Source: Clostridioides sp. ES-S-0054-01 (GTDB taxonomy: Bacteria > Bacillota > Clostridia > Peptostreptococcales > Peptostreptococcaceae). From it: a DNA stretch of 64,000 nucleotides. Positions 2,130 through 58,465 of the stretch are shown here, in pieces; position 1 is the first letter of the stretch, and each line of letters starts with the position of its first letter. A model generated the notes under the pieces. That model worked only from the letters and a program-made list of their open reading frames with translations, searched no databases and was not told the origin of the DNA. Location of the stretch: the NCBI GenBank assembly GCA_021561035.1, contig CP067346.1, positions 3,255,001-3,319,000 on the forward strand. Reading direction: 5' to 3'. The position numbers and the translations under genes were made by a program.

Positions 2130-2141
2130 ACTAATTCCTCC

Positions 2142-37470: not shown

Positions 37471-37506
37471 CATTTTAAATTTAAAGCTATCTTTATAGTT
37501 TTTTAT

Positions 37507-38988
<1,482 letters not shown>

Positions 38989-39013
38989 CTTTTATTAATA
39001 CTTTAATCTCTTA

Positions 39014-40942
39014 CTAAAATATAACTGTAATCAGATTATCTTCTAATTCGACATTTTTACTTTCTGTTTCTACCACATCTAAAAATTGTGATGAATTTGT
39101 AATAACAATTGGAGTTACAACACTATATCCCGATTTCTTTATTATATCAATATCAAAGTTTAATATAGTTTGACCTTTTGTAATTCTATCACCTTGCTTT
39201 ATACATGCCTCAAAACCTCTTCCTTCTAACTGAATAGTATTTAATCCAATATGAATAAGCACTTCAACACCTTCATCTGAAAGAATTCCTATAGCATGTA
39301 GACTGGGGAATAAAGTTGTAACCAATCCATCTACTGGTGCAACTACTTTTCCATCACTAGGTACTATAGCTATACCTTGACCTAGTACACCAGATGCAAA
39401 TGCCGCATCTTCTATATCGCTTAAATTTAATACCTCACCTTTTATAGGGCTTGCTACTACTTCTCTTTCTAATTTAGTAGACTTAACTTCTTTTGTTTCT
39501 TCTTTTACTTTATTTTTTACTTCTTTAGCTTCTCCTACTTGCTCATCTTTATATAAAACCATAGTTAATACAAAAGCTACAATCATTGATATAGCTATAC
39601 CAGAAAGAGCTACTATTAAGTTACCCATTCCTCCATCTGGTTCAATCATTGCTGGAAGTTCGAATATGCCCATTCCTCCAGTTATAAACTTTCTAAGATT
39701 AAAGAATCCATAGAAAGCCCCCCCAATACCACTAGCAATACAACTTATTATAAATGGTTTCTTCAAAGGTAATAATATTCCATAAATTGCTGGCTCGGTA
39801 ACTCCAAATATACCAGATATAAAGTTTGGTATTGCCATCTCTCTTAACTTCTTATCTTTAGTCTTAAAAAATATAGCTAATACAACTGCCGAACTTGCAA
39901 ATGTACAAGCAAAGAATGGCATCATAACATTATCGTATCCTAAAGTCATAACATTATTTATATATACAGGAATGAATCCCCAGTGCATACCAAAAATAAC
40001 AAGAATTTGCCAAGTAAATCCTACTATAACACCTGCTAATAATGGACTAAAATCTCTTATCGAAATTACAACTTGTGAAATAAGTGTAGAACCAAATGTT
40101 GCTATAGGACCTATAACTATAAGTGCAACAGGTAATGTTACTAATAATGTAAGCATTGGTACAAAGAAAAACTTAACTAAATCTGGAATAAACTTGTTAA
40201 ATAATTTTTCACACTTAGATGCAAAGTACACTATAAATATAATTGGTACGACCGTTCCAGTGTAATCCATTGATATCATTGGTAGTCCAAAGAAGTCAAT
40301 GTATACTGGAGATGCAAACATTGTTCCTTTAAATAAAGTGTACATAACATCTGTACCTACTGATATACTGCTACCTTGTATAGCAGGATAACACATTGCA
40401 GCCCCTAGTGCTAATCCCAACATTGGTTTTAGACCAAATTTCTTAGCTGAAGTATATCCTAAAAATAAAGGAAGGAATGTAAACAATGCATCTCCCGCTG
40501 CATTTATTACCATATATCCACCAGATACATCACTATATAGCCCCATTGCTACAAATAAAGCATTAAAACCTTTTAACATACCACAGGCTGCCATTATTCC
40601 TAGTACTGGCTGGAAAATTCCTGATATTATATCGATACATTTATCTAGCATGCTACTTGATTTTTTAGTTTCTGAATTTGCACTTGAGTCATCTAAATCA
40701 ATTATTTCAATTACATCTTTATAGACAGCTTCAACATGATTTCCTATGACTACTTGATACTGTCCTCCACTTTTCATTATGGTAACAATACCTTCCATGT
40801 TTTTTAATATATTATCATTTGCTATACTTTCATCTTTTAATGTAAAACGTAATCTCGTAATACAGTGTACTAATCCACTAATATTTTCTTTTCCACCAAC
40901 ATTTTTTACTATTTCTTGTGCTAATTGTTTGTATTTTCCCAT
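39014..40942 (-). CDS. bglF: Beta-glucoside PTS permease EIIBCA (third copy)
   Basis: 642 residues from the ATG at 40942; the GGAGG site lies inside the four-codon upstream extension. EIIB Cys27 is in VHCITRLRFTL, EIIC about residues 100-465 with FGVTEPAIYG, then a charged Lys/Glu linker (VKNKVKEETKEVKSTK, about 478-500) longer than in the other two copies, then EIIA with EVLIHIGLNTIQL holding the phospho-His. It imports and phosphorylates a beta-glucoside. Confidence 0.95.
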   Translation of the reverse strand: MGKYKQLAQEIVKNVGGKENISGLVHCITRLRFTLKDESIANDNILKNMEGIVTIMKSGGQYQVVIGNHVEAVYKDVIEIIDLDDSSANSETKKSSSMLDKCIDIISGIFQPVLGIMAACGMLKGFNALFVAMGLYSDVSGGYMVINAAGDALFTFLPLFLGYTSAKKFGLKPMLGLALGAAMCYPAIQGSSISVGTDVMYTLFKGTMFASPVYIDFFGLPMISMDYTGTVVPIIFIVYFASKCEKLFNKFIPDLVKFFFVPMLTLLVTLPVALIVIGPIATFGSTLISQVVISIRDFSPLLAGVIVGFTWQILVIFGMHWGFIPVYINNVMTLGYDNVMMPFFACTFASSAVVLAIFFKTKDKKLREMAIPNFISGIFGVTEPAIYGILLPLKKPFIISCIASGIGGAFYGFFNLRKFITGGMGIFELPAMIEPDGGMGNLIVALSGIAISMIVAFVLTMVLYKDEQVGEAKEVKNKVKEETKEVKSTKLEREVVASPIKGEVLNLSDIEDAAFASGVLGQGIAIVPSDGKVVAPVDGLVTTLFPSLHAIGILSDEGVEVLIHIGLNTIQLEGRGFEACIKQGDRITKGQTILNFDIDIIKKSGYSVVTPIVITNSSQFLDVVETESKNVELEDNLITVIF

Positions 40943-41086
40943 TTTTTCCTCCATATTTCTTTAAATTAATTTTTTGAAATTTGAAGGTTTGGCCAACTCA
41001 ATGTTACCATCCAACCATAGGTATAGTTTTTTTAGTATCACTCCTTTCAATAGCTATTACTATATTACTACTAAAAATTATTCAGC

Positions 41087-41950
41087 TTACACATTTGAAT
41101 CTTTAACTACTTTAGCTAAATGTATAGTTAAATATATAAGCTCGTCATATGTTAATATGTAGTTATATTGTTTTTTAATAAAATTTTTAATCTTAGCTAC
41201 ACATTCAAATTCTTTATTATATTTAGATTTAATAATGTTTAATAATTCTTTGTCTGTCTCACCTTCATGTTCACTATCTAAAAGTAATCTCTGTGCAAAA
41301 AATTTAAGATGCATTATAAATCTATAATAAAATACTGATTCCTCATGAAACTCTATCCTAAAATGATATCTAACTATACTAAGTACTTCTTGTATTAACT
41401 TTGTGATATCAGATGCTAAGGTATGACCTTCACTTAACTGAGCGTTTACTATATGAAAGGCTATAAATCCAGCTTCATCTTCTGGTAATTTTACATGTGT
41501 TTTGCTTTCAATAATACCTAGTGCTTTCATCCCAATTTCAAACTCTTCTTTATAAAATCTTTTAATTTCCCAAAGTATTGCATTCTTTACGTTTATTCCT
41601 TCTTTCATTCTTTGAATCGCAGAATATGTATGGTCACTTAATGATATATAAATACTTTCATTTAACTTCTTATTTAGTTTTTTTTGGGCATACTCTATAA
41701 TTTCACTAGATAATTTCATGTGTTCTATAGGAATATTGTTAAGTAATTCTTGTAACTTATTCGATATTTCTTTATTTGATATTCTAAATACTTTATTTAC
41801 TTTAGTTTTATCTATCAAATCTCCTTTTGATTTTTGATAACCAATTCCTTTACCCATGACAATAATTTCTTCATCATTGTCATCTAATGTGATTACAACA
41901 TTATTATTTAATATCTTATTAATTATCATGATTATCCTCCTTTTAAGCAT
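41087..41950 (-). CDS. bglG: BglG/LicT-family RNA-binding antiterminator (second copy)
   Basis: 287 residues: CAT RNA-binding domain (about 8-62; INKILNNNVVITLDDNDEE, GKGIGYQKSKGDLI), PRD1 (about 70-175; YISLSDHTYSAIQR, EIGMKALGIIE) and PRD2 (about 180-285; RFIMHLKFFAQRL, IYLTIHLAKVV). The ATG is taken as given, though MIINKILNNNV seven codons on, after AAGGAGG, is an equally good start. A leader terminator lies directly upstream. A hairpin GGTTGG...CCAAACC resembling a RAT lies in the gap to bglF (about 40986-41020). Confidence 0.92.
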   Translation of the reverse strand: MLKRRIIMIINKILNNNVVITLDDNDEEIIVMGKGIGYQKSKGDLIDKTKVNKVFRISNKEISNKLQELLNNIPIEHMKLSSEIIEYAQKKLNKKLNESIYISLSDHTYSAIQRMKEGINVKNAILWEIKRFYKEEFEIGMKALGIIESKTHVKLPEDEAGFIAFHIVNAQLSEGHTLASDITKLIQEVLSIVRYHFRIEFHEESVFYYRFIMHLKFFAQRLLLDSEHEGETDKELLNIIKSKYNKEFECVAKIKNFIKKQYNYILTYDELIYLTIHLAKVVKDSNV

Positions 41951-41955
41951 AAAAA

Positions 41956-42019
41956 AAGCTTATCCATAATAATGGGCATACTCCTTCCTAGGATACTGCT
42001 ATTATTAATGAATAAGCTT
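41956..42019 (-). terminator. Leader terminator of the third bgl operon
   Basis: AAGCTTATTCATTAATAAT pairs with ATTATTATGGATAAGCTT (one bulge, one G-U), followed by TTTTTTT. It lies just before bglG as in antiterminated operons. A standard RAT core (GTTACTG...GCAGGC) is not visible beside it. Confidence 0.85.
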
Positions 42020-42058
42020 AGCTTGTACTTAAACAATTACTACCTAATTCCAATTAAT

Positions 42059-42087
42059 ATGATAAAACATCAGACATATTTTGTCAA
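42059..42087 (-). promoter_or_regulatory. Promoter of the third bgl operon
   Basis: Minus-strand TTGACA (42087-42082), 17-base spacer, TATCAT (42064-42059). No cre match was seen next to it, unlike the other two bgl operons. Confidence 0.75.
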
Positions 42088-42322
42088 CTTTTTATTTCCA
42101 TATACTGCATCAATCTTTTGTGTTGCTTTTTGTCAGTTATAATAATTATTCTCATTAATATTAATTTAATAGAGTTCATTTTTAATAGTTTTATTATAAT
42201 TTTTAAAATCAACAACATTAAATCCTTTATTTATTAGAAGATTATATGTTGTTATATGTTTTAAATTATATTTTCTTTCTGACCTCTAAACTATTCTCTA
42301 TCTCTTATTTATTTCTGTAATA

Positions 42323-42370
42323 AAAAACGACCTCCTTTAGTAATTTAATCTCTCACAAGAGGTCGTTTTT
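42323..42370 (-). terminator. Terminator of the RiPP cluster's transport genes
   Basis: AAAAACGACCTC / GAGGTCGTTTTT 12-bp stem with TTTTTTATT on the minus strand, about 70 bases past the permease stop. Confidence 0.9.
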
Positions 42371-42442
42371 CGATTTATAAATTCAATTATTAACCTCTTC
42401 ATTTGACTTAAAATCTATACTAGATTTGTATCAATAAAAAAT

Positions 42443-44944
42443 TTATAAGTCTAATTTAATATTTCTTTGAGCCAATATAAATATAAAACAATTTATAGAC
42501 AATACTACTAAAAATTCTATTAAAATCAATAAATAATTAATATTATAATCTCTCTGTAACAATGAAATTAGTAAGAATCTAAATAGTTCATAAAAAATTG
42601 CTATAAGAATACTTTGGATAATTGATACAATTATCATTTCTAATAAACCTATTTTTATCAATTTTCGTTTACTCATTCCTACTCTATACATAATTTGATA
42701 ATCTAGTACTCTCCTTATAAAAATAATTATTTGAGATGTTAGTATTAGAAGTATACTTGACAATGACACAGCAAATATAATATTCAAAAGTAATGACTTT
42801 TGATCATCAACATATGTTTTCATAGAATAAGCAAAATCATTATAGTCCTCTAAATTAGCATATTTATCATTATGTAATAATTTGCTAAGTAAAGTGTTAT
42901 CTAACTTTTCTTTAAAAAAATATATTACTGGTTGATTTTTAGATAAATCAAGGGTTTTAGGTGAAATATTTTCATTTATATTTATATATCCTAAATCTAC
43001 ACCTTTGTTCAATGATTTTGGACTTAAAAATCCTATTACTTTAAAGTCTATATCCTTTCCATTAATTCTTAACTTTACAGTATCACCTAGTTTATAATCT
43101 ATTAAGTATCTATGAAGATAATTATTTATAATTATACTATTTTCTTTATCATTTTCTTTGAACCAGTTTCCATACTCTAAATCACTTTTTAATATTGTCT
43201 GTTTAGTATTGAATAAATCAACACTTAAGTCATTTAAATCATTCATTACATCTTTTCTATTCTCATATGGAAATTTTTCAATATAATCATTAACAGAAAT
43301 ATTATTTACTGACTCTATACTATCTATTTTAATTGGATAATATTGAAAATAATCTATATCATTTTCGATAAGTTTTTTATCTGTAATTAATTTTCCTTCT
43401 AAAGTTGTTTGATATACAATTGAATTTTTTATACTATTATCAACTTCATAATTGCTAAACATAGCAAAGGTTATTTCAGATATCATAAACAACAACAAAA
43501 CAAATATTATTGTTATTGTTAATAGACTAGAGCTAAAAGCATTGGTTTTACAATCATTATTAAGATATATAAAAGTAATCGAGTATTTTCCTTTAATAAT
43601 TTTTTTAATTAAACATACCATTTTTAATAATGCATATATCAAACTGTATACCAATAAATCTAGTAGTATTAATCCTAAAATAAAAAAAATACCTAGAAAG
43701 GACTTCACATATATTGTAAAAGAAATACTTGTTAAAAATATTACAAGAATTATATCTGGAATAAAGTTAAATTTATATGAAGACAACATACTATTATCTC
43801 TATTTATTCCTTCATAAGGTATTTTTTTAACAAAACTTATAGGAATTAATGAGAATATTGATGTTTCAATTATTATAATAACTATTGAAATGAAAATATT
43901 TTTGATAATACTCAAAATAGAAATATTAAATAGATTAATATGTTGTAAGTTAATATAGAATATAGTTATAGGAATCCCCAAAATAATACCTATTATAATC
44001 CCCTTTATAGTAATTGACATAAGTTCAGTAAATACTAGAAAAGATAAACTTCTTTTTTTAATTCCTAAAGCCTTAAAAGTTGAAAAATCATGTATTCGAT
44101 TTAAAATAAATACAATAAATGTAGAACATAGACAAATTCCAGTGATTAATAATGAAATAGCTCCAATTAAATTTATTGAATCTAATTGCATAGATATTCT
44201 CTTTATTATTGACTGTTCTAGTTCATCAGTTGTTCTAACTTCAAAATGGTTTTTAAATACATTTTTTATTTCATTTTTAATATTTTTCACATTTTCTTTG
44301 TTTATTATATTTATATAAGCCACATTATATTTAGTTTCATTAGGCAAATATACATAACTTTCTCCAACTACCTCTTGGCCAACCTCTGCTTCTTTTTGAG
44401 CTGTACTTAATGAAAACCGTTTTGGTATTATATCACTAACTTTAAAATATGTATCATCATAAACTGAAGAATGTAGTTTTAAAAACACTTTATCTCCTAT
44501 ATTTACATTTAATTTATTAGCTGTTTTTTGGGATAAAACTATATCATTTTCATTTCTTAATTTTAAATATGTATTTTGCATTTTTATATTATTTACTACA
44601 GTCAATTCAGTACTTTCAATCATACCATTTGACAATATATTTGTATTCATACTACTTCCCAACTGAAAATCAATAGATTCTTTATCTTTTAATTCTTCTA
44701 ACTTACCTATTTGTTCACTTGTAAAGTAGTATTTATTATATTCTATATTTTGTATTTTTATATCTCCACCATTTGTTATAGCCATATTTCTCTTAACTTC
44801 ACTTGAATATGTATCCGTTAACACTCTTGTAAAAAGTAATATTGATGTGGCAAATACAATAGATATTATACAAGAGATTTTTAATAATTTATTATTCTTC
44901 AAACTATTCTTACTATATATTTTATAAACTTCATGAAATATCAA
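42443..44944 (-). CDS. FtsX-type ABC permease of the RiPP cluster, 833 aa
   Basis: A long permease with a first membrane span (about residues 22-42), a large extracytoplasmic domain, three spans (about 260-370), further spans around 395-445 and 470-495, a second extracytoplasmic domain and three C-terminal spans (about 715-825). This is the duplicated FtsX/MacB layout. It is the last gene of the cluster, 11 bases after its ATPase. In peptide-antibiotic loci such pairs often give self-protection or help export; which applies is not shown. It differs strongly from the FtsX permease at 2-4.6 kb and is poorer in recognisable motifs. Confidence 0.85.
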   Translation of the reverse strand: MIFHEVYKIYSKNSLKNNKLLKISCIISIVFATSILLFTRVLTDTYSSEVKRNMAITNGGDIKIQNIEYNKYYFTSEQIGKLEELKDKESIDFQLGSSMNTNILSNGMIESTELTVVNNIKMQNTYLKLRNENDIVLSQKTANKLNVNIGDKVFLKLHSSVYDDTYFKVSDIIPKRFSLSTAQKEAEVGQEVVGESYVYLPNETKYNVAYINIINKENVKNIKNEIKNVFKNHFEVRTTDELEQSIIKRISMQLDSINLIGAISLLITGICLCSTFIVFILNRIHDFSTFKALGIKKRSLSFLVFTELMSITIKGIIIGIILGIPITIFYINLQHINLFNISILSIIKNIFISIVIIIIETSIFSLIPISFVKKIPYEGINRDNSMLSSYKFNFIPDIILVIFLTSISFTIYVKSFLGIFFILGLILLDLLVYSLIYALLKMVCLIKKIIKGKYSITFIYLNNDCKTNAFSSSLLTITIIFVLLLFMISEITFAMFSNYEVDNSIKNSIVYQTTLEGKLITDKKLIENDIDYFQYYPIKIDSIESVNNISVNDYIEKFPYENRKDVMNDLNDLSVDLFNTKQTILKSDLEYGNWFKENDKENSIIINNYLHRYLIDYKLGDTVKLRINGKDIDFKVIGFLSPKSLNKGVDLGYININENISPKTLDLSKNQPVIYFFKEKLDNTLLSKLLHNDKYANLEDYNDFAYSMKTYVDDQKSLLLNIIFAVSLSSILLILTSQIIIFIRRVLDYQIMYRVGMSKRKLIKIGLLEMIIVSIIQSILIAIFYELFRFLLISLLQRDYNINYLLILIEFLVVLSINCFIFILAQRNIKLDL

Positions 44945-44955
44945 TGTATCACCAC

Positions 44956-45624
44956 CTATTTTATAATAGTTCCATCTTTAATACTTATAATCCTATCACT
45001 ATATTCTGCCATTTGAATATCATGAGTAACCATTACTATTGTAGTACCATATTCATTGTTTATATTCTTAAACAATTTCATTATAGCATGACTATTAGTA
45101 CTATCTAATGATCCAGTTGGTTCATCAGCAAAGAGTATATTTGGAGAACAAACTAGAGCTCTTGAAATAGCAACTCTTTGCTTCTCACCACCTGATAACT
45201 GTTTAATATTATTTTTTGTTTTGGATGTCAACCCAACCTTTTTAATCATCTTATCTACTATTTTATAATCTTTATTATCAGAAAAAATCAATGGCAATTT
45301 TATATTTTCTTCAACAGACATTGATGTAATTAAGTTAAATGATTGAAATACAATCCCTATCTTTCTATTTCTATATTCAGCAAGTTCATCATCAGTTAAT
45401 TTCGATAAATTCTCACCACAAACTTTCACGTTTCCAGTATAGTTTTTATCAAGACCACTTAATATACTTATTAGAGAGCTTTTCCCACTACCACTAGCAC
45501 CCATTATAGAAACAAATTCTCCTTCTTCTATGTATAAATCTATATTCCTTAGTATAGTAAGTTCTGTGTTTAACAAGTCTACAACTTTAGATAAGTTTGA
45601 AACTTCAATTATCATTTTTTTCAT
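44956..45624 (-). CDS. ABC transporter ATPase (MacB/LolD type) of the RiPP cluster
   Basis: 222 residues from the ATG at 45624 (AAAGGAAA site eight bases before; the longer reading includes this site). Walker A GASGSGKSS, FQSFNL Q-loop, LSGGEKQRVAISRAL signature, Walker B ILFADEP, GSLDSTN D-loop. It pairs with the FtsX permease downstream. 27 bases separate it from the exporter gene upstream. Confidence 0.92.
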   Translation of the reverse strand: MKKMIIEVSNLSKVVDLLNTELTILRNIDLYIEEGEFVSIMGASGSGKSSLISILSGLDKNYTGNVKVCGENLSKLTDDELAEYRNRKIGIVFQSFNLITSMSVEENIKLPLIFSDNKDYKIVDKMIKKVGLTSKTKNNIKQLSGGEKQRVAISRALVCSPNILFADEPTGSLDSTNSHAIMKLFKNINNEYGTTIVMVTHDIQMAEYSDRIISIKDGTIIK

Positions 45625-45651
45625 ACCATTATTTCCTTTCATACAAAACTT

Positions 45652-47370
45652 TTAAGATTGATTATTAATTAAAACAGAGTATATAGGACATCTCTTTAAT
45701 AAAGATTCATGGTCTCCTCTATCAACAATGTGACCATTATCTAAAACATAAATATTGGGTACATTGGTTATAGAAGTAATTCTATGAGAAATTATTATGA
45801 TTGTCTTCTCCTTTGATAACTCATCTAAAAGACACATAATTTCATTTTCATTTTTTCCATCTAAATCAGAAGTTATTTCATCCATTAATAATATCTTAGG
45901 ATCTTTTATTAATGCTCGAGCAATAGCTATTCTTTTCATTTGTCCACCTGATAATTCCTCCAAAATTGTATCAAATCTATCAGGTAGTTCTTCAATAAAT
46001 TTTGCTAAATCTACTTTTTCACAAACTTGATTTATTTTCTCTATCGTAGCATTAATATCTCCATATAATAAATTTTCCTTTATAGTACCGTTAATCATGA
46101 CAGGTCTTTGATGCACTATTGAAATATTCTTCCTTAAGTTATCTAAGTCAACATTTCGAATGTTATTGTTATCAATATATATATCACCATTGTTAGGCAA
46201 ATAAAATTGTTCAATCAATGAAAACAAGGTACTTTTTCCTGCTCCATTTAATCCCACAATAACTGATAATGATTTTGGTTCAAAAATAGCTGTAAAATCA
46301 CTTAATATTTTTTTATTCGTATTCGGATAAGTAAAATGAACTTTATCAAATAATATTCTTCCACTAATTTTGCTAATCATCAAATATCTATTACTATGAT
46401 CTATAGAAATATCAAAGAAGTTAGAAATTCTATCTATTGAGGCAATAACGGTTTGATAAACTAAGTTAATATTTAATATACTTTTGATTCCATCAAAAAA
46501 TGTTGCTAAAAAACCATTAAAGGCGACATACGAACCTATAGTAAATTTATTATATATTATTAACCAAGTCCCATAACCTATAATAATCCATTCTGTTAAT
46601 GAAGAAATAAATAAATTTAAAAAACCTACAATAATATCTAAAACTGCAATTTCCATATTTAATTCCCTATAACGTTTTATATAATTTTTAAATTTTTTGT
46701 ACATAATTTGCTCCATTGTATAAGCTTTCACATCTTTAATTCCATCTAAAGAATTATTAAGAAATGAATACAATTCATCACCTAGCTGTCTTAATAAACT
46801 AGTTTTTATGTTTATTTTCTTTCCACATATTACATAACCCAAAAATCCTATTGGAAATGATATTATTGCTATTATTGTTAATGGTATTGACAAATAAAGT
46901 AGAAAAAATAACGAAACAATAGACTTAATAATTGCAATAACTACTTCTATTATTTTAACCACAAAAAAATTAGATATGGTTTCACTATCTCCTTCAATTA
47001 GTGATATAATATGTCCTGATCCTAACATATTGAAATCAATTATAGATAACTCTATGCTCTTTTTATAAATATCAGCTTTTATATCTTGATTGATTCTAAA
47101 TATTAACCACTTAGTTAAATAAGTTTCAATAATACTAAAGAAAGAATTTATCATAAAAATAATAAATAGAAAACAAATTATTTTGACAATACCATCAAAC
47201 TTTCCTTCTGTTACATAATTTATAATCTTACCTAGAAAATAAATAGGAAAAAGATCTGCTACATTACTTAATATTGTGGCTAAATATAAAAATATAAATC
47301 TTAACTTATAAGGCTTTATGTATTTTATAAATATTTTATAATTTTTAATTTTCTTAATTTCAGAGACCAT
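45652..47370 (-). CDS. ABC exporter (fused membrane and ATPase domains), no peptidase domain
   Basis: 572 residues: six membrane spans (about 20-310) then an ATPase domain (about 345-565) with Walker A VGLNGAGKST, signature ELSGGQMKRIAIARAL, Walker B ILLMDEITSDLD and H-loop IIIISHR. This is the half-transporter layout used for peptides, lipids or drugs. The C39 leader peptidase common in bacteriocin exporters is absent: the protein starts directly with the membrane part. As it follows two cysteine-rich precursor genes, it likely exports the modified peptides; leader removal must come from elsewhere or not occur. Confidence 0.9.
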   Translation of the reverse strand: MVSEIKKIKNYKIFIKYIKPYKLRFIFLYLATILSNVADLFPIYFLGKIINYVTEGKFDGIVKIICFLFIIFMINSFFSIIETYLTKWLIFRINQDIKADIYKKSIELSIIDFNMLGSGHIISLIEGDSETISNFFVVKIIEVVIAIIKSIVSLFFLLYLSIPLTIIAIISFPIGFLGYVICGKKINIKTSLLRQLGDELYSFLNNSLDGIKDVKAYTMEQIMYKKFKNYIKRYRELNMEIAVLDIIVGFLNLFISSLTEWIIIGYGTWLIIYNKFTIGSYVAFNGFLATFFDGIKSILNINLVYQTVIASIDRISNFFDISIDHSNRYLMISKISGRILFDKVHFTYPNTNKKILSDFTAIFEPKSLSVIVGLNGAGKSTLFSLIEQFYLPNNGDIYIDNNNIRNVDLDNLRKNISIVHQRPVMINGTIKENLLYGDINATIEKINQVCEKVDLAKFIEELPDRFDTILEELSGGQMKRIAIARALIKDPKILLMDEITSDLDGKNENEIMCLLDELSKEKTIIIISHRITSITNVPNIYVLDNGHIVDRGDHESLLKRCPIYSVLINNQS

Positions 47371-47407
47371 ATATTTTCACCTCTAAGTAACATTTTTATA
47401 ACTTTGA

Positions 47408-47448
47408 AAAACTCCATGCTATGAATCTTCATAAAACATGGAGCTTTT
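47408..47448 (-). terminator. Terminator between precursor peptides and exporter
   Basis: AAAAGCTCCATG / CATGGAGTTTT stem with TTTTTC on the minus strand, 87 bases after the second peptide and 38 before the exporter. Partial readthrough would give more precursor than transporter mRNA. Confidence 0.8.
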
Positions 47449-47534
47449 TAAGTACTGTAATTTTATTAGACACATTGCTAAATTTAAAAGTATATTAAAA
47501 TTAGAATGCATAAGGTTATAAACATGTTTTGTTT

Positions 47535-47663
47535 TTATCTAGTGCCTACACATCCGTGACAACCTAGTATACAAGTTCCTTTACAACTCGCAACACAATT
47601 ACCCTTACATGGACACCATCTTGGATTTATGTTATCATTAACTATCTTACTGTCAAGCTTCAT
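47535..47663 (-). CDS. Cysteine-rich RiPP precursor peptide B, 42 aa
   Basis: Found by hand translation. It begins MKLDSKIVNDNINPRWCPCK, the same start pattern as peptide A, then runs GNCVASCKGTCILGCHGC and ends VGTR. Seven cysteines lie at 17, 19, 23, 27, 31, 35 and 38: from C19 to C35 they are exactly four residues apart, a CXXX repeat. The AAGGGGAG site nine bases before ATG is strong. The first 15 residues serve as a short leader and the cysteine-rich rest as core (inference). Radical SAM modification of CXXX peptides is the likely fate; the final structure is unknown. Confidence 0.85.
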   Translation of the reverse strand: MKLDSKIVNDNINPRWCPCKGNCVASCKGTCILGCHGCVGTR

Positions 47664-47706
47664 ATTTTAACACTCCCCTTTATACAAGTTTTATTAAAAT
47701 AAACAA

Positions 47707-47862
47707 TTATGGTTGAATAAGTACTTTTCCTTTACAACCTCCTTCACATGAACCCAAGCATCCTGTACATTTTTTCATGCAAGAAAACTGACAACCTGCA
47801 TTTTTACATGGACACCATCTTGGGTCAACTGAAGTTTCAATATTCTTTGAATCTAATTTCAT
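47707..47862 (-). CDS. Cysteine-rich RiPP precursor peptide A, 51 aa
   Basis: Found by hand translation. It opens MKLDSKNIETSVDPRWCPCK, continues NAGCQFSCMKKCTGCLGSC and EGGCKGK, and ends VLIQP. Eight cysteines are at 17, 19, 24, 28, 32, 35, 39 and 43, mostly four apart. The segment MKLDSK...PRWCPCK is shared with peptide B 43 bases downstream, marking them as paralogous precursors with a conserved leader and variable core. AGAGGGGG precedes the ATG. Transcribed right after the accessory protein and radical SAM genes, so expected to be their substrate. Confidence 0.85.
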   Translation of the reverse strand: MKLDSKNIETSVDPRWCPCKNAGCQFSCMKKCTGCLGSCEGGCKGKVLIQP

Positions 47863-47912
47863 ATAATATCCCCCTCTTTCTTTTTATATTTGTTTAATAT
47901 ACTTCATATTAT

Positions 47913-48248
47913 CTATATATTTTCACATTTATAACCTTCATCAGAAAACATTTGATCTTCATCAAACTCATTTAAATAGATACTACAATCAGAGAAATTA
48001 AGAGTATATTTATTAGCTAATTCTAAATTAAGATTGTACTTTTTGATTAACATTTCCCAATATAAAGTATATTTATGATTTGCTTCTTTGATATCTTCAG
48101 TTATCTGTTTATATAAATCACTGTTCTCTTTATAAAGATTATTTTCTTCAGTCAATGTAATCATAAGATTCCTTAAAGTATTAATTTCTTCAACTATATT
48201 TATTAAAGTTTCGTTATCTTCTTTAGAAATAGTTGTTATTAAATTCAT
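47913..48248 (-). CDS. Small accessory protein of the RiPP cluster, 111 aa
   Basis: An acidic, mostly helical, soluble protein (EETLINIVEEINTLRNL then TEENNLYKENSDLYKQI, coiled-coil-like) with two cysteines near the end (SDCSIY and YKCENI). I do not recognise its family from the sequence. By position, between the radical SAM gene and the two precursors, and by size it fits the CXXX-repeat peptide modification system protein that accompanies such maturases in TIGRFAM-type descriptions (recalled, not checked). It may bind the leader or act as a partner of the maturase. AGGGGG precedes the ATG. Confidence 0.65.
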   Translation of the reverse strand: MNLITTISKEDNETLINIVEEINTLRNLMITLTEENNLYKENSDLYKQITEDIKEANHKYTLYWEMLIKKYNLNLELANKYTLNFSDCSIYLNEFDEDQMFSDEGYKCENI

Positions 48249-48269
48249 TTTCTATATCCCCCTAAGTTT

Positions 48270-50423
48270 TTATTTTATGCTTGCATATGGATTAACATCT
48301 AATTCTCCAAGAATAAGTTCAATTGGATCAGAATAATCTAATGGTTTAATATCTTCCTCTAAATCTATAGGTAATTTATAATCTTTTATAAGTCTTTGTA
48401 GTATCATAGAGGTATTTCTTTCAATGTGGCTTTTTTCGCACTGCTTATGTCCAGGTATATTGTACTCTCCAGTACAGTTTATATTATGATATACACATCT
48501 ATTGCACTGATATGCATCACAAGCTAAGCAGACAGGAGAGTGATCCATATCACAATTAAATAATTTATCTTCTGTTATTCCTTCATCTATATTACCTATA
48601 AAATCTTCTGGATTATTAAAATAAAATGCTGGGCAAATATAAATATTCCCATTTGGAGCAATAGCATAATTATTCTCTCCACATTCACAATTGTCCATTT
48701 TATTCAAAAATATTCTATCTGTAATAACATTAACCTCTTTATATTGCTTTCGCTCATAAAGCTTGATTAATAAATCTTTAATTTTAAAAAGTTCACCTTC
48801 ATATAGTTTTAAGTCGATCTCATTAATATTACCTTTGAAAACTAAGTTAATTCTTTTTGACTTTTCCAATAATTTTTTAATGCTAATATATATTTGATTA
48901 ATTTGGGAAGAATAAATATTAAGAATGCAATTCCTTCCACCAATATATTCATCAATATCCTCTATATTTAAACATACAATTTCATTTGTATTTTTATATG
49001 TTGGCTTGATTTTTAAATCCCTTATTTCAATTCTTGATAATACCGAAAAACTATCTAAGTCAATAATATTCTCTTGGGTTTTTGAATTCAAAATAATTGG
49101 TTTGAAAAAATTCTTTTCACAGTAATTCAATGCCTTTTTTAACAATTCTTTGCTCATAATATTTTCTGAATTTGATTTACTAGAGTAGCTACAATGTTCT
49201 ACAGAGTCATCAGAAAGTATAAAATACATATTTTTCTTGAACTTTGGTTCAATCTTTCTGCGAATATTATGTTCTCTTTTTAACCTATCCCAGTAATAGT
49301 TATTTCCTCTAATTCTTGCCTTATGCATCTTACATATGTATGTAGCTCTATTATAAATTGATGAATTATCTGCACAATCATAATTAGAACCTTGGCACCA
49401 AGCACATCCTGATGCCACTTCACATTTTATACACTCTTCTTTGCTTATATTTTCAGTTGATAGGGCTAAAAATGGTCTAACTTTATCTAATATAATTCCT
49501 TCATTAACATTTCCTATTGATCTACCACATTTGTCATTTAATGAAAAATCAGAAAATCTTAAGCAAGGATAAAAATCTCCATTAGCATCAATAGCTAACA
49601 TCCTTCCAGTTCCACAAAAATTAGATTTTAGATTAAAATCAGTTATTGGACCACCTAAATTTTCATCAAATAATGTGCAATTCACCTCATTCCAAAGTTT
49701 ATTATCTATTACATAATCTGCTAAAGATATTAATTGATTTTCAAATACTTTATCATCTCCATCTTTCCATACATCTTCATAAACTACATTAGCTGGCACA
49801 TCTTTTAAACCTGAATTCCATAAGTGAATTATACTTTCTTTCAAATATATCAAATCTTCACTTCCAAAGGTTACTTTTGTAGTTGAGTCTGGCATATCTG
49901 ATAACCATTTGGGTATGTTTTTGAATACATCATTGTATGAACCTCTACCGTCTTCATATATTCTATGTAAATTATGTTTTCTCTCAGTTCCATCAATAGT
50001 CATACTTATAGAAAGTTTATCTTTATTTTTCCTAATATATTTACTAACCAGGGGTTGATTATAAAGCGTACCATTAGTTCCAATATTAAATCTATAATCG
50101 TTTAACCACTTATGTTTCTTTCGATAAGATTGAATCTTAATATAGTCACTAATTTTATCAATTAACTCAATCTCTAGAAGAGGTTCTCCACCAATAAAAT
50201 CCCATATTACAGCTGGAGCATCATACAATTCCTCATTATCCAATATATAATCGACACTTTTTTTTGCTATCTCAAATGACATACGTTTTTTATTATTTTT
50301 ATGAACTTCATAGCAATAACTACAACGTAAATTACAATCTTCAGTTACAATAAATGTAACTTCATATGCCTTTCCTTCCTTCCATTGCTCATTTCCACAT
50401 CCCATTAAATAATTTTTAGACAT
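48270..50423 (-). CDS. Radical SAM/SPASM peptide maturase, fused double protein, 717 aa
   Basis: The N-terminal part has the radical SAM cluster C30-x3-C34-x2-C37 (EDCNLRCSYCYE) and the GGEPLL motif at 79-84. A SPASM-type domain follows with C270, C287, C299, C331, C334, C340, C343, C350 and C364, which would hold auxiliary iron-sulfur clusters. A second section (about 395-717) lacks CxxxCxxC but ends in a second SPASM-like set: C579, C581, C597, C624, C632, C635, C640, C643, C650, C662, with IAPNGNIYICPAF mirroring IDANGDFYPCLRF of the first. So it appears to be two maturase units in one chain. SAM-derived radicals would form thioether or similar links on the cysteine-rich peptides encoded downstream. 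First gene of the cluster. Confidence 0.88.
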   Translation of the reverse strand: MSKNYLMGCGNEQWKEGKAYEVTFIVTEDCNLRCSYCYEVHKNNKKRMSFEIAKKSVDYILDNEELYDAPAVIWDFIGGEPLLEIELIDKISDYIKIQSYRKKHKWLNDYRFNIGTNGTLYNQPLVSKYIRKNKDKLSISMTIDGTERKHNLHRIYEDGRGSYNDVFKNIPKWLSDMPDSTTKVTFGSEDLIYLKESIIHLWNSGLKDVPANVVYEDVWKDGDDKVFENQLISLADYVIDNKLWNEVNCTLFDENLGGPITDFNLKSNFCGTGRMLAIDANGDFYPCLRFSDFSLNDKCGRSIGNVNEGIILDKVRPFLALSTENISKEECIKCEVASGCAWCQGSNYDCADNSSIYNRATYICKMHKARIRGNNYYWDRLKREHNIRRKIEPKFKKNMYFILSDDSVEHCSYSSKSNSENIMSKELLKKALNYCEKNFFKPIILNSKTQENIIDLDSFSVLSRIEIRDLKIKPTYKNTNEIVCLNIEDIDEYIGGRNCILNIYSSQINQIYISIKKLLEKSKRINLVFKGNINEIDLKLYEGELFKIKDLLIKLYERKQYKEVNVITDRIFLNKMDNCECGENNYAIAPNGNIYICPAFYFNNPEDFIGNIDEGITEDKLFNCDMDHSPVCLACDAYQCNRCVYHNINCTGEYNIPGHKQCEKSHIERNTSMILQRLIKDYKLPIDLEEDIKPLDYSDPIELILGELDVNPYASIK

Positions 50424-50737
50424 ACAATTTTCTCCTAATTCTTTAGATTATCATATGATTTTTGTTAAACTCATTCCTAGGATAACACTACTTAATTATT
50501 TTTTACGATATTTTAAATTATTAATAATATTATTCGTTAAATTTAACAGATTGATTTAAATCATTTTTTATATTATTGTCTATTATCGATAATTTTGCTA
50601 CAATTGATCATTTAAAAGTAACAGCTTAAATAAAAACTAAAATAGTCCAAATGCATAAAACCTTATAAAATTTATTGATGATTCATAGTAAACATACTTT
50701 ATTCTTACATAAATTTGTATTATCATGCGTTAATGTA
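50424..50737 (-). other. Long untranslated leader of the RiPP operon
   Basis: About 300 AT-rich bases between the promoter and the radical SAM gene. It holds a 12-base palindrome GTTAAATTTAAC (50536-50547) and a possible 14-codon reading frame (MHLDYFSFYLSCYF) after a weak AAGG. No known riboswitch was recognised. Whether the mini-frame is real is unclear. Confidence 0.35.
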
Positions 50738-50766
50738 ATCATATAATACCAATGCATTTATGTCAA
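50738..50766 (-). promoter_or_regulatory. Promoter of the RiPP operon
   Basis: Minus-strand TTGACA (50766-50761), 17-base spacer, TATGAT (50743-50738): a good vegetative-type promoter and the only strong one seen before the radical SAM gene. Confidence 0.65.
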
Positions 50767-50862
50767 TATAATTCCATAATTTTTATTATATCTAATTATT
50801 TTCACTAAATTCTTACTTTGAATTTCTAAAATGACTTTAAATTTTACTAATAAATACAAATT

Positions 50863-50915
50863 AAAAATAAGTGTAAATGTTTAGGCACTCTGCTCTAACA
50901 ATTACACTTATTTTT
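50863..50915 (-). terminator. Terminator after the BlaRI-like operon
   Basis: AAATAAGTGTAA / TTTACACTTATTT with further inner pairing (TTGTTAG... / ...CTAAACA), then TTTTTAA on the minus strand; it separates this operon from the RiPP promoter. Confidence 0.8.
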
Positions 50916-50995
50916 ACATAAAAACCCTTATTGGTATTTATTATATGTTAATCTCTTTTTACATAATTTTAAAATCAATACATTCTATAAATCAT

Positions 50996-51235
50996 CTACA
51001 CGTTAATCCAATTAGTTTTCCAATATCCATATGTAATTGACCAAAGACGTTTTTGCTTTTTACCATTATGGATTCTATAATACCATTTAAGCTGTTCTGC
51101 TTTTGTATCTACAGACTTATAAGAATCTGTTTTAATGGCAATACCTACTTCACTAGCATAAACCATATCTGTTCCAGCTACACACATAATTACCAGTAGT
51201 AATCCAAAAATGCCTTTTTTCATAGTACTTTTCAT
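50996..51235 (-). CDS. Small secreted protein of unknown function, 79 aa
   Basis: A clear signal peptide (KK, then GIFGLLLVIMCVAGTDMV, cleavage probably after VYA at residue 27) leaves a mature peptide of about 52 residues ending in WYYRIHNGKKQKRLWSITYG and YWKTNW, a basic, aromatic-rich tail. I do not recognise the family. AAGGAGG precedes the ATG. It is the last gene of an operon with a BlaR1-like sensor protease and a BlaI-like repressor, so its secretion is probably induced by cell-wall stress or another extracellular signal. A role as an effector, antimicrobial or envelope-protective peptide is possible. Confidence 0.8.
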   Translation of the reverse strand: MKSTMKKGIFGLLLVIMCVAGTDMVYASEVGIAIKTDSYKSVDTKAEQLKWYYRIHNGKKQKRLWSITYGYWKTNWINV

Positions 51236-51247
51236 ATTATAACCTCC

Positions 51248-52375
51248 TTAGTTTTCTTTTCTAATATTCTTTATATCTGAAATTGGCTGTGCTTCCAAGT
51301 CATCATTTGTTACTTTTCCAAAGAACTCTCCATTAACAAAAAGATCTATGCTTCCATCTTTCCGTATTAATAAATATGCATTTTCATTAGTAATTGCAAC
51401 TTCTGAAACAAGCTCCTCTTGAGGTGGATAAGAAACTGGTTGTAATATTATGAAATATGAAAATATGAATAAAAGCAATGCTAAACATATAGTAATTAAT
51501 TTTTCCTTAATATCTTTTTGAGATTCTTCATTAAGAACAACTTCAAATCTTTGTTTTATTAGCTGAGTATTTTTGTTTTTGCAAAAAGATGGTAATCTAA
51601 ATTTTTCTCTTTTATTTTTAGTTTGCTTTAAAACATTTAAAATAGTTTGTAAATATACCATTCTTCCATCATAATCCATATGTTTTGTAACTGCTAAATC
51701 ACACCTTAGTTCTAGTAAACTGTCAACTTCACTATTAAAAATATGAATAACTGGATTCCACCAAAGTATAGATCTTAGTAGAGTGTAGAAAAGTTTAATT
51801 AAGATATCTTTCCCCTTTACATGTTGTATTTCATGTTGAATTATATATCTTAATTTATTATCTCCTAAAGATAAAGGTGGTAGATATACATATGCTTTTA
51901 AAATACCTGTAACTCTAGGAGTATCAATATTTCGAGATACTTTAATAACAGAATTTTTTGCAAACTCTTCTTTCGCTATTTTCTCTACCTGTTCATCCTT
52001 TATTGTAAAGTCTATTTTTATTTTTCTATGCTCTGCTATATAAGATAACATTGATATCACAAAAAATATAATAGCTACTACAATCCATATAATCACTATC
52101 AATTCTCCAAAAGTTACATCATTAAATATAGTCTTCTCCAATACTGTCTGTATCCATGGAAGAAATGTATCAGATTCTATAAGCAATGTATTATATAAGT
52201 CTAGAGGAAGCAATAGCCGAACTATTGAAAGTACTAATAACAGTAATAGTAATGATGTTCTATTCTTTATTAAGAAAGAATTACGATTTCTTAATACTGC
52301 AATTAATAACAATCCAAAACTAGAAAATACAAGTGCACTCATAAATGAATATATACTAACTCCAGATATTAACAT
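51248..52375 (-). CDS. BlaR1/MecR1-like M56 membrane metalloprotease, no sensor domain
   Basis: 375 residues with four membrane spans (about 8-28, 40-58, 92-112, 290-310). The zinc motif HEIQH lies at 181-185 in a cytoplasmic loop, followed by VDSLLELRCD, as in the M56 peptidase family. Classical BlaR1 is about 585 residues with a C-terminal penicillin-binding sensor domain; here only about 65 residues follow the last span, so beta-lactam binding is not expected. It would cut or inactivate the BlaI-like repressor encoded 5 bases upstream when some signal is sensed. Confidence 0.9.
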   Translation of the reverse strand: MLISGVSIYSFMSALVFSSFGLLLIAVLRNRNSFLIKNRTSLLLLLLVLSIVRLLLPLDLYNTLLIESDTFLPWIQTVLEKTIFNDVTFGELIVIIWIVVAIIFFVISMLSYIAEHRKIKIDFTIKDEQVEKIAKEEFAKNSVIKVSRNIDTPRVTGILKAYVYLPPLSLGDNKLRYIIQHEIQHVKGKDILIKLFYTLLRSILWWNPVIHIFNSEVDSLLELRCDLAVTKHMDYDGRMVYLQTILNVLKQTKNKREKFRLPSFCKNKNTQLIKQRFEVVLNEESQKDIKEKLITICLALLLFIFSYFIILQPVSYPPQEELVSEVAITNENAYLLIRKDGSIDLFVNGEFFGKVTNDDLEAQPISDIKNIRKEN

Positions 52376-52380
52376 TTAGT

Positions 52381-52749
52381 CTATCCTCTTTTTTTCCTCA
52401 ATAATTCTTCAAGTTCTTCAATAGTTTCATCTGTAATATCCTCTGATTCAATAAGTTTAGAAAAAAGCATAGATATACTTGTTTTTCTCGCAATTTTTGC
52501 TAATATACCTGCATAATAACGTTCTCCTGATTTAGTAGGTTCAAACGTTCTGCCAAATCCTTTACCAGTTCGAACATATCCAGCCTCACGAATAGCATTT
52601 TTTTTCAATAAGCTGTTAAGTAAAATATGTATTGAACTATCTTTCCATGATTTATCAACCGATAAGTTCACTATTTCTGTTCTTGTAAGTGGACGTTGCT
52701 CACTCCATAATACTTCCATAATTTCAATTTCATTTTTTGTCAATTCCAT
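52381..52749 (-). CDS. BlaI/MecI-family repressor
   Basis: 122 residues, a winged-helix repressor beginning ELTKNEIEIMEVLWSEQRPLT, with SSIHILLNSLLKKNAI as recognition and the wing around YVRTGKGFGRTFEP; the rest is the helical dimer domain. BlaI proteins bind short dyads at their own promoter and are cut by the partner protease. First gene of the three-gene operon. Start supported by a GGAGATGAGTAG stretch. Confidence 0.92.
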   Translation of the reverse strand: MELTKNEIEIMEVLWSEQRPLTRTEIVNLSVDKSWKDSSIHILLNSLLKKNAIREAGYVRTGKGFGRTFEPTKSGERYYAGILAKIARKTSISMLFSKLIESEDITDETIEELEELLRKKRG

Positions 52750-53720: not shown

Positions 53721-54926
53721 TTATATTCTATTATCAAAGAATATAGATAACTGATTATATATACTATCCCAGTTTCTATATCTCATAGTCCATTTTTTCA
53801 TCACATTTTCACTTGCCAAGAACAATATTTTTAATAGTGAATCGTCTGATGGAAAAGTGGACTTTGTTTTTGTGACTTTTCTAAACTGTCTATTAAGTCC
53901 TTCAATTATATTTGTAGTGTACATTATAGTCCTTATTTCTTCAGGAAAACTAAAAAATGGTGCTATAACATCCCAGTTATTTCTCCAAATTTTAATTGCC
54001 GAAGGATACTATTTACCCCATTTTTCATCTATTTTGTCTAAAGCCGATGAGGCTTCTTGTTCATTAACTGCTTTATATACAGATTTAAAATCACTTATTA
54101 ATGCTTTTGAATCTTTGTATGAAACATATTTAAAAGTATTTCTTATCTGATGGATTATACATTTTTGTATTATAGAATTAGGATAACTTGCGGCTATCGC
54201 CTCTTTGAAGCCATTTAATCCATCAACACTAAAAATTAGTATATCTTTAACACCTCTATTTTTTAAATCGGTTAAAACACTATACCAAAACTTTGAAGTT
54301 TCGTTTTCACCTATCCATATTCCTAAAATATCTTTGAAACCATCCTTATTTACTCCTAGAACTACATATGCAGCTTTATTTTTTATTTTTCCATCATCTC
54401 TTACTTTGTAATGAATTGCATCCATAAATACAAAAGGATAAACTTGTTCAAGAGGTCTATTTTGCCACTCTTTAGCTCTTTGAATTATAATATTTGTTAT
54501 ATTACTTACTTGATCAGCTGAAATTTCTATACCGTATAAATCTAATATCTGGTCATGTATATCTCTTGTTGACATACCTCTTGCATAAAGTGATATTATT
54601 TTTTCTTCGATTCCTGAAATATCTCTAATATTTTTAGGAACGACTACTGGGTTAAAGTCATTATCTCTGTCTCTTGGAACGTCTAGTTGTAAATCTCCAA
54701 ATTGTGATTTTACAGTTTTTTTGCTATATCCATTTCTTCTATTAGTTGTATTCTTGTTATGGCTGTCGCCCTTTTCATAACCTAGCTCTAATGCCATTTC
54801 TTGTTCTAACATCTCTTGTAGTATATCTTTGAACATATCTCTTAGATAGCTACTTATATCTCCAGATTTTATAAATTCTCCATCTGATATAATTTCTTTG
54901 ACTAATTGTTTTCTTAAAGTATTCAT
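53721..54926 (-). pseudogene. IS256-family transposase interrupted by one amber stop
   Basis: The frame is 402 codons, the normal length for the Mutator/IS256 family. It has QMALELGYEKGDSHN-type N-terminus (EQEMALELGYEKG), the VPRDRDNDFNPV region, the first Asp in VFMDAIHYKV, the second in FSVDGLNGFKEA, and the late MYTTNIIEGLNRQFRK with the catalytic Glu. A TAG at 54009-54011 stands between WGK and YPSAIKIW; the frame continues intact on both sides, so a single nonsense change explains the break. The gene would give a truncated 305-residue protein unless the stop is read through. AAAGGAG precedes the ATG. Confidence 0.92.
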
Positions 54927-55582: not shown

Positions 55583-56632
55583 TTATTTCTTTATTGCATT
55601 TAATATCAACTCATGAGCTGTATCATTTGTACAAACAATTAGTGCTTTCACATGATTTATTCCTAATACCTCTATTGCAGCTTTAGCTACATCATTATCA
55701 TCTACAACCATTCTTATGTTAAAGTTAAACTTTCTTACCAAATGTTCTGTATCAGAGTAGCATACATAATGTTTTGTTCCTAGTCTAACAATACCATTTC
55801 CTTCATCTGCTATTTCTGATACATTTATTTTAGAGCCTTCCTTTTTTCCCTCTAATTTACTAACCCAATTATTCATATCTCTTGTAGTATTAATTTTTTT
55901 AAATTGATCTATTACATCTTCTTTTTTAAACATTTTTCTTAAATTCCATATTCTATTCTCAGATATATTAGAAGCTTCCATTTTTTTAGAGAAATTAGGC
56001 ATTATTTTGTCTAAACCATTTATAAATTGTATTTGCTTAGCCTTTACCTCTGAAAACCCTCTATCATCAATTAACCTTTGCAGAGGTGACTTAGTTTTTT
56101 CTTGTATTTGCTTAGCTTTTTCGATTTCTCTTTTGAAATATTCTTGTTCTTCTTTTGCTTTCCTACCTTTTAAAGATTCTTTTGCCATCTTTTCTCTTTT
56201 TCTTGCCCTTAAATATTCTTCCTCTGCAAATTTATTATCTGGGTTTATTTGTTCATATAACACTTGAAGCTCATCAAATATTTTAGATAATTGGTATATT
56301 GTGTGATGTTTTCTTATTCCATTTTCATGAAGGTTTTCTTGTCTATGATTCCTATAAGCATCTACTTCATTTTTATATTTTGTAGTATCAATAGTTACAC
56401 GTATTGTTTCTTTACCTAATATTTTGCATGCTGTTAATCTATGATATCCACTTATTAAATGGTAATTTCCATTGTGGTCTTCCCACACATTGATGGCATT
56501 TATCATTCCATGAAATTTTAGATTTTCAATTAAATTATCTAAGTTAGCTTTATCTTCTTCATCTTTAAATCTTTGTGCTACATAAATTTCTTTTATTTTT
56601 ATTTCTTTTTCTTTTCTTATTGTAGTTTTCAT
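55583..56632 (-). CDS. ParB-like nuclease-domain protein, 349 aa
   Basis: The N-terminal ParB/Srx-type domain (about residues 8-100) contains LIENLKFHGMINAINV and SGYHRLTACKILGKETI, the GxxR nucleotide-binding box of ParB proteins. A long charged helical middle (about 115-190, rich in Lys/Glu) and a C-terminal part of unknown type follow (RLGTKHYVCYSDTEHLVRKF). It sits 20 bases after a second ParB-like gene and lacks a ParA partner, so classical chromosome or plasmid partition is doubtful; plasmid- or phage-derived regulator is likelier. Confidence 0.8.
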   Translation of the reverse strand: MKTTIRKEKEIKIKEIYVAQRFKDEEDKANLDNLIENLKFHGMINAINVWEDHNGNYHLISGYHRLTACKILGKETIRVTIDTTKYKNEVDAYRNHRQENLHENGIRKHHTIYQLSKIFDELQVLYEQINPDNKFAEEEYLRARKREKMAKESLKGRKAKEEQEYFKREIEKAKQIQEKTKSPLQRLIDDRGFSEVKAKQIQFINGLDKIMPNFSKKMEASNISENRIWNLRKMFKKEDVIDQFKKINTTRDMNNWVSKLEGKKEGSKINVSEIADEGNGIVRLGTKHYVCYSDTEHLVRKFNFNIRMVVDDNDVAKAAIEVLGINHVKALIVCTNDTAHELILNAIKK

Positions 56633-56652
56633 ATTCTCTCCTAAATAATAAA

Positions 56653-58305: not shown

Positions 58306-58348
58306 AAGTTATCTATTTATAATACCTTATATTATAAATAGATAACTT
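58306..58348. repeat. Perfect 18-bp inverted repeat
   Basis: AAGTTATCTATTTATAAT (58306-58323) and its exact inverse (58331-58348) with a 7-base loop ACCTTAT. No T run follows on either strand. It may be a transcript end structure or the relic of a small mobile element. Confidence 0.6.
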
Positions 58349-58465
58349 ATTCAAACAAATTACAATAGAATATTATAAATGTCCAATATTTCTTATGAAT
58401 ATACCCTCAAAACTCATCTTTTTTAGTAGTTAAATCATAATTGATGAATTTATTCACTAAAGTAA

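Follow-up and report, generated by a model that had tools for sequence, protein, structure and literature searches.

The closest described systems to the locus reported here are the CXXX-repeat systems of NCBIfam, in which a curated family of radical S-adenosylmethionine (SAM) maturases (models TIGR04115 and TIGR04119) is accompanied by a partner protein (TIGR04116) and by precursor peptides (TIGR04114, TIGR04117 and TIGR04118), and whose chemistry is apparently unexplored in the open-licence literature searched. A characterised system with a repeated four-residue Cys motif is PapB/PapA, and the PapA product is named freyrasin. PapB is described in PMC9413430 as joining Cys to the Asp or Glu of a CX3D/E motif, and the SCIFF peptides are described as using Thr as the acceptor (PMC8326336 and PMC10352776). 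Here we describe a minus-strand locus at positions 42323–50766 of a 64,000-nt window (the whole stretch of DNA that was analysed; G000:C1:3255001-3319000) in the 3.93-Mb single-contig genome of Clostridioides sp. ES-S-0054-01, whose 16S rRNA is 99.8% identical to Clostridioides difficile records (24 plasmid-collection records are at least 99% identical). From its gene and profile content the locus is a cluster for a CXXX-repeat ribosomally synthesized and post-translationally modified peptide (RiPP), a bioinformatically known family, in Clostridioides. As far as could be seen it is a genuine and complete-looking new member of a known RiPP kind, apparently chemically unexplored and with a divergent pair of precursors. 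New here is the finding that its ATPase/FtsX pair, together with the last 39 nt of its exporter gene, is kept under purifying selection in two sister genomes in which no maturase is matched at E 1e-60.

The likeness to the NCBIfam systems lies in maturase domains and a partner that score over the cut-offs and in adjoining precursors with Cys at every fourth position; the locus differs in that its precursors score under the precursor cut-offs and its FtsX permease is unmatched in the 17 relative loci. PapB is the closest characterised maturase model, but the window maturase scores 208 bits, under the PapB cut-off of 340, and Asp and Glu are nearly absent from the window cores. The SCIFF maturases, which likewise act on a Cys-rich clostridial peptide, provide the best solved-structure match (5wgg, E 1.3e-41, which we take to be the SCIFF maturase CteB), but the window maturase scores 122.5 bits against the SCIFF cut-off of 425, and because the match begins at model position 101 (protein residue 24) the N-terminal part of the model is without counterpart. 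Thuricin CD, a two-component sactibiotic, is like the locus in that its two small peptides owe their maturation to radical SAM chemistry, but going by the title of its description it uses two radical SAM enzymes, whereas here one enzyme would serve both peptides. In the open-licence literature searched no CXXX-repeat product is characterised, which does not in itself establish that there is none, and no paper joins 'CXXX repeat' with radical SAM or gives the TIGR numbers. The 'CXXX' wording of PMC5682303 refers to a CxxxCxxC motif, and the titles and abstract openings of the listed papers on C. difficile radical SAM RiPP gene clusters name no such system.

A sequence-only reading had proposed a radical SAM/SPASM maturase, a partner, two Cys-rich peptides, an ATP-binding cassette (ABC) exporter and an ATPase/FtsX pair, and all of these genes are present within 42323–50766. 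They are transcribed in the order maturase, partner, peptide A, peptide B, exporter, ATPase and FtsX permease, and are listed here with the associated signals.

50738..50766, minus strand: promoter-like site TTGACA-17-TATGAT, some 315 nt upstream of the maturase start (11/12 consensus bases)
48270..50423, minus strand: radical SAM/SPASM maturase, 717 aa (TIGR04115 and TIGR04119 over cut-off)
47913..48248, minus strand: partner, CXXX repeat peptide modification system protein, 111 aa (TIGR04116 over cut-off)
47707..47862, minus strand: precursor peptide A, 51 aa, 8 Cys (Cys spacing 2,5,4,4,3,4,4)
47535..47663, minus strand: precursor peptide B, 42 aa, 7 Cys (Cys spacing 2,4,4,4,4,3)
47407..47448, minus strand: inner terminator-like hairpin in the gap between precursor B and exporter (-19.6 kcal/mol, z -5.85)
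45652..47370, minus strand: ABC exporter, 572 aa, membrane and ATPase domains (PF00664 and PF00005 over cut-off)
45652..45690, minus strand: 3′ end of the exporter gene, 39 nt, still present next to the orphan ATPase/FtsX pair of two sister species (alignment breakpoint 45690 in L067 and L068)
44956..45642, minus strand: ATPase, LolD/MacB-type, 222–228 aa (PF00005)
42443..44944, minus strand: FtsX/MacB-type permease, 833 aa, TTG start, candidate self-protection (PF02687, FtsX, and PF12704, MacB_PCD, over cut-off)
42322..42371, minus strand: final terminator-like hairpin (-20.5 kcal/mol, z -5.26)

Precursors, maturase and related loci

Several features mark the two precursor peptides. First, both begin with MKLDSK and have PRWCPCK in common, just as the sequence-only reading had stated, with a leader of about 16 residues (MKLDSK...PRW). 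Second, they alone among the 316 small frames (25–130 aa) of the window contain three or more CxxxC steps, and none of 200 dinucleotide shuffles of 45652–51000 yields such a frame, while frames of at most 60 aa with at least seven Cys arise in 2 of 200 shuffles of the same region. Third, the joint number of CxxxC steps in the two cores (eight, four in each) is matched by about 2 in 100,000 core shuffles (p 0.0045 for A and 0.0025 for B taken singly); the Cys spacing of both peptides is non-random. Finally, both peptides fall short of the curated models: peptide A scores 13.5 bits (cut-off 50) and 12.7 bits (cut-off 20) with TIGR04117 and TIGR04114, peptide B scores 10.5 bits with TIGR04114 (cut-off 20), and no TIGR04118 match is listed for either at E ≤1. 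Among 23 collected precursors (the window's two included), 16 match TIGR04117 and 9 match TIGR04118 at E ≤0.1, peptide A matching TIGR04117 only at E 0.059, far below the cut-off. By these comparisons the window precursors represent a divergent leader type (MKLDSK...PRWCPCK) within the CXXX-repeat family system. In the pooled 23 peptides 143 of the 195 Cys-Cys steps are of four residues, and in these the second gap residue is Gly in 57/143 and the third is Ser or Thr in 73/143.

The maturase carries the family assignment, scoring 526.1 bits with TIGR04115 (cut-off 350) and 236.2 bits with TIGR04119 (cut-off 150) in the NCBIfam profile search, with both domains fused in one protein. The label 'double radical SAM', given to it from the sequence alone, holds in part. 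Profile comparison shows the second half to be a homologue of the first (hhalign probability 96.9%, E 1.4e-10), and each half has a set of seven SPASM-type cysteines, C270–C364 in the first and C579–C662 in the second, invariant in the alignments. There is, however, a single CX3CX2C motif, at residue 30 (C30, C34 and C37), and no second one in the second half of the window maturase or of any of 16 aligned proteins (two alignment rows are short at the N-terminus and without any CX3CX2C motif); the L029 maturase has an extra pattern match at 327, which lies inside its first SPASM region. An enzyme with two radical SAM centres is ruled out by the presence of one CX3CX2C motif only. The second half is, from the alignments, a degenerate copy of the first that has kept the full SPASM cysteine set. 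In known SPASM enzymes the seven-cysteine set binds two auxiliary clusters, and if each set here does so the maturase could hold up to five Fe-S clusters.

The assignment to a CXXX-type RiPP system, made in the sequence-only reading, is borne out by three curated NCBIfam models over cut-off and by the loci of relatives. Of the 17 relative loci, 16 have a small frame with three or more CxxxC steps within 2.5 kb of the maturase, and such frames make up 20/948 of the small frames near the maturases vs 0/1430 farther away. We looked for maturase homologues lacking a Cys-rich neighbour, which would have spoken against the assignment, and the only locus without one (L031) is on a contig of only 4 kb. 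The 17 loci are not independent, as one genome (G902) gives three and another (G934) two, L023 and L029 are near copies and L027 and L042 are close relatives; outside the 17 stand L025 and L026 (short phage-type maturases), L032 and L033 (TIGR04119 below cut-off) and L020–L022 (below cut-off). The relatives include the Anaerococcus prevotii plasmid pAPRE01, a Prevotellaceae and a Mollicutes metagenome-assembled genome and a Lachnospiraceae isolate. Conservation of the two small frames is seen in part: Cys spacing and position are kept across relatives, but within the genus a search of seven other genomes gave no counterpart of peptide A save one match at E 0.34 with a stop; in the source genome the search gives two matches, peptides A and B themselves.

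The distribution is patchy. TIGR04115 is matched at E ≤1e-60 in 4 of 147 relatives, the source genome included, and in none of the seven other Clostridioides genomes at E 1e-60; of the three other positive genomes, the G138 gene sits in a phage tail module and that of G063 is probably also of phage. TIGR04119 is over its cut-off in 6 of the 391 class genomes (source included), in one of 398 in the phylum sample (the source genome), in 5 of the 11 genomes from one other genus and in 2 of the 296 from the order that includes G121; these genome samples overlap. A search of viral contigs with the window maturase gave no relatives.

The partner scores 56.8 bits with TIGR04116 (cut-off 50). A partner frame lies downstream of 14 of the 17 relative maturases, and all 15 aligned partners (the window's and the 14 relatives') match TIGR04116 at E ≤1; the alignment excludes a shorter frame of L043, and no partner frame was found by script in L023 or L006. 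No RiPP recognition element (RRE; PqqD-like) domain is matched in Pfam at E ≤1 in either maturase or partner, and since the radical SAM domain of the maturase starts near residue 20 there seems to be no space for an N-terminal RRE. Because the partner frames of 14 of the 17 relatives all match TIGR04116, the partner is the strongest candidate for binding the leader. In 14 of 17 relatives an ABC protein that matches the window exporter (in a few only part-length) lies within 4 kb of the maturase, and the description of the exporter as lacking a peptidase agrees with the 10 Pfam matches listed for it, none of which is to a peptidase family. An S8-like or subtilase-like gene lies beside the maturase in 7 of 17 relatives, ending close upstream of it or abutting it (L027, L043, L024, L028, L042, L045 and L048), with PF00082 confirmed in the three tested of the seven; this gene is a candidate leader protease for the CXXX family. 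In L046 and L047 the CXXX cluster is followed by an extracellular solute-binding protein (SBP_bac_1) and ABC permease-like frames (the permeases recognised by eye), a possible device for product uptake or sensing, and similar frames are seen by eye in L024 and L048.

The ATPase/FtsX pair in sister species

The last two genes of the cluster follow the exporter closely, with gaps of 9 nt between exporter and ATPase and 11 nt between ATPase and FtsX. Against NCBIfam the ATPase matches LolD and FtsE first, all below cut-off among the 25 matches listed. Its start is likely to be at the seventh codon, since the L068 copy has a 1-nt gap before that codon, and ω was computed from there onward.

The region 37495–45690 is present in the sister species G006 and G007 (loci L067 and L068 respectively), neither of which gave a maturase (TIGR04115, E 1e-60) or anything matching precursor A at E 1. 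In both, the alignment ends at 45690, 39 nt inside the exporter gene. It picks up again at 58305 in L068 and, in L067, at 58501, with a further 70-nt match at 58305–58374 in the latter. That the two share this breakpoint and keep an exporter remnant suggests an ancestral state of G006 and G007 in which the pair adjoined an exporter. Three further genomes (G003, G005 and G002) have the left flank only up to 42104–42111, that is, the flank without the pair, and G001 and G004 have only short paralogous matches to it.

The orphan copies in G006 and G007 differ at synonymous sites (dS) by 0.095 for FtsX and 0.154 for the ATPase, similar to the values for their neighbours (BglG 0.107, bglA 0.129 and bPGM 0.063), and so the pair and its ordinary neighbours have probably descended together. 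The copies have no internal stops, and their ω values are 0.23 for FtsX (p 1.4e-10) and 0.11 for the ATPase (p 8.1e-8) vs neutrality. The ATPase/FtsX pair is under purifying selection in two species without the maturase. Such retention by selection without the biosynthetic genes is the pattern expected for immunity, and it fits a history in which biosynthesis was lost and immunity kept. The gene comparisons leave out bglA of G003 (locus L069) and GH65 of L068. When this genome is compared with G006, dS is 0.014–0.015 for the pair and 0.24–0.44 for the surrounding genes; as the value for the pair is far below that of its surroundings, the comparison indicates that the pair DNA has moved recently between lineages.

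A second ATPase/FtsX pair is present in the window at 1464–4649, with a permease of 835 aa; its ATPase is 41% identical to that of the cluster, and the permeases are about 20% identical over 123 residues. The segment 45690–58305 that is missing from the matching locus of G006 and G007 also contains a BlaI/BlaR1-like pair accompanied by a small, secreted-looking peptide (50996–52749), an IS256-type transposase (54009–54926) and two ParB_N-like proteins (55583–57687), one of them over the Pfam cut-off.

Proposed working of the locus and other explanations

We propose the following working. The TIGR04116 partner, the degenerate second half of the maturase, or both, would bind the short leader, and the single radical SAM centre would walk along the core, joining most Cys thiols to a residue within the next three positions. 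The bonds would be thioethers, probably of non-alpha (ranthipeptide-like) type, giving a chain of small rings. Both products would be secreted by the ABC exporter, with any leader cleavage performed by a protease encoded elsewhere, and the ATPase/FtsX pair would shield the producer from its own product. If the pair does protect its producer, the product would most likely be antimicrobial against related bacteria. As a whole, this account of an exported, pair-protected, antimicrobial CXXX-repeat RiPP with thioethers in the Cys gaps seems to us reasonably probable.

Several observations weigh against it. First, PapB chemistry cannot apply unchanged, since core A has one acidic residue (E40), with no Cys standing four residues before it, and core B has none, so that the acceptors must differ. 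Second, no single acceptor residue recurs in the eight CxxxC gaps of the window cores, the +3 residues being S, K, S, G, N, S, T and G. Third, the similarity of the two maturase halves comes mainly from the SPASM part, and the barrel parts alone give a probability of 47.8% (E 1.9e-4). Fourth, no protease gene is seen in the window cluster. Finally, a permease matching the window FtsX is found in none of the 17 relative loci at E 1e-6, so that the pair is no fixed part of CXXX clusters and may be a separate neighbour. On the other side, one relative, L029, does have an ATPase (46% identical) with an FtsX-domain permease, but these adjoin another radical SAM gene, which lies about 5 kb away from the CXXX maturase.

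For the bonds, PapB-type links of Cys to Asp or Glu are ruled out, the cores being almost without either residue and the maturase scoring under the PapB cut-off. Thioethers from Cys to residues of the following gap are favoured, because acidic acceptors are nearly absent, SCIFF peptides use Thr, and Ser or Thr stands at +3 in four of the eight gaps; non-alpha linkage seems more likely than alpha, with clear uncertainty. That the maturase makes alpha-carbon thioethers of the sactipeptide type, with all else as proposed, we consider unlikely. It would accommodate the varied residues in the gaps, including the Gly at two of the eight +3 positions, as any residue has an alpha hydrogen, and sactipeptide maturase models also match the enzyme, for instance RumMC at 76.8 bits (cut-off 720); against this, the PapB, CcpM, SCIFF and quinohemoprotein (TIGR03906) models all outscore RumMC. 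According to PMC9413430, C-beta/C-gamma thioethers are recognised in MS/MS by rings that do not fragment internally under mild CID.

A decayed cluster that makes nothing would explain why no leader protease gene is seen and why the distribution is very restricted. Yet all frames are open, the catalytic and auxiliary cysteines of the maturase are all present, and 10 of the 17 relatives are likewise without a nearby S8-like match, and we regard decay as highly improbable.

The standing of the pair bears on the proposed immunity. It could be a separate, mobile module for resistance or export that simply adjoins the cluster, as might be argued from the lack of FtsX matches in the relative loci, from the recent transfer indicated by dS (0.014 to G006) and from its being kept without the maturase in two species. 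We find this possible but rather doubtful: the pair starts 9 nt after the exporter, its two genes are 11 nt apart, no terminator-like hairpin was noted between the exporter and the pair genes, and the orphan copies retain the exporter's last 39 nt. It is also conceivable, though we judge it quite unlikely, that the peptides are signals or metal binders rather than antimicrobials and that the FtsX pair has some different function. PMC8326336 lists SCIFF peptides together with quorum sensing, and the SBP_bac_1 proteins near the clusters of the two relatives tested (L046 and L047) suggest uptake; the patchy presence (none of the seven sister genomes) and the selective retention of the pair suit a weapon and its immunity better.

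Returning to the antimicrobial RiPP proposed above, the locus is compact, has two precursors for one enzyme and belongs to a genus that includes a major gut pathogen, with two sister species having the pair but no maturase and three having the flank but no pair as natural comparators; both the chemistry and the proposed immunity are therefore open to direct test. Should the product prove active against Clostridioides, it would offer a narrow-spectrum lead.

Transcription signals, phage-type loci and other observations

The sequence-only reading placed the genes between one promoter and one final terminator. The final hairpin (42371–42322) is supported, none of 200 shuffles folding as well, but there is a second hairpin at 47448–47407, between precursor B and the exporter, for which the same is true; both were missed by a simple terminator scan and found by folding vs shuffles. 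The inner hairpin could possibly act as a partial terminator, so that message for the precursors would exceed that for the exporter. The promoter-like site at 50766–50738 is the best in the region by consensus, but as the scan finds 80 sites vs 82.3 expected from shuffles it is without statistical weight and is of interest for its position only. No Rfam RNA, riboswitches included, is matched in 36000–60000.

A plasmid origin of 20000–44900 was considered and rejected, the segment having no near DNA match. An anti-phage role was likewise rejected after PADLOC was run on five proteins: the maturase gives weak viperin matches, and the exporter matches (the best to mad3, 8.6e-27) are read as generic ATPase ones.

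TIGR04115-type genes are also found in phage. In G138 such a radical SAM gene (L025:1507-4477) lies among tape measure, baseplate wedge, tail protein and endolysin genes (PHROGs). Extremely Cys-rich proteins, for example one with 44 Cys in 183 aa, are encoded beside this gene; such Cys-rich frames are present in all six phage-type loci examined (L025, L026 and L075–L078, about four distinct phages), the tail genes having been tested in L025 only. The CX3CX2C region of L078 has, by eye, an intein-like insert, and the G063 gene has five in-frame TAG. It looks as though these phage loci encode a CXXX-modified structural protein. A broader notion, which we put forward as speculative and think improbable, is that CXXX peptides form a distinct scaffold, a four-residue thioether ladder without acidic acceptors made by an enzyme with one radical centre and two SPASM sets, which serves as a weapon with separable FtsX immunity in Clostridioides and, in phage tail modules, as a structural protein that is heavily modified.

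Besides its CXXX maturase, pAPRE01 (L023:4632-14139) has a class III lanthipeptide system and one more radical SAM gene, all within 14 kb.

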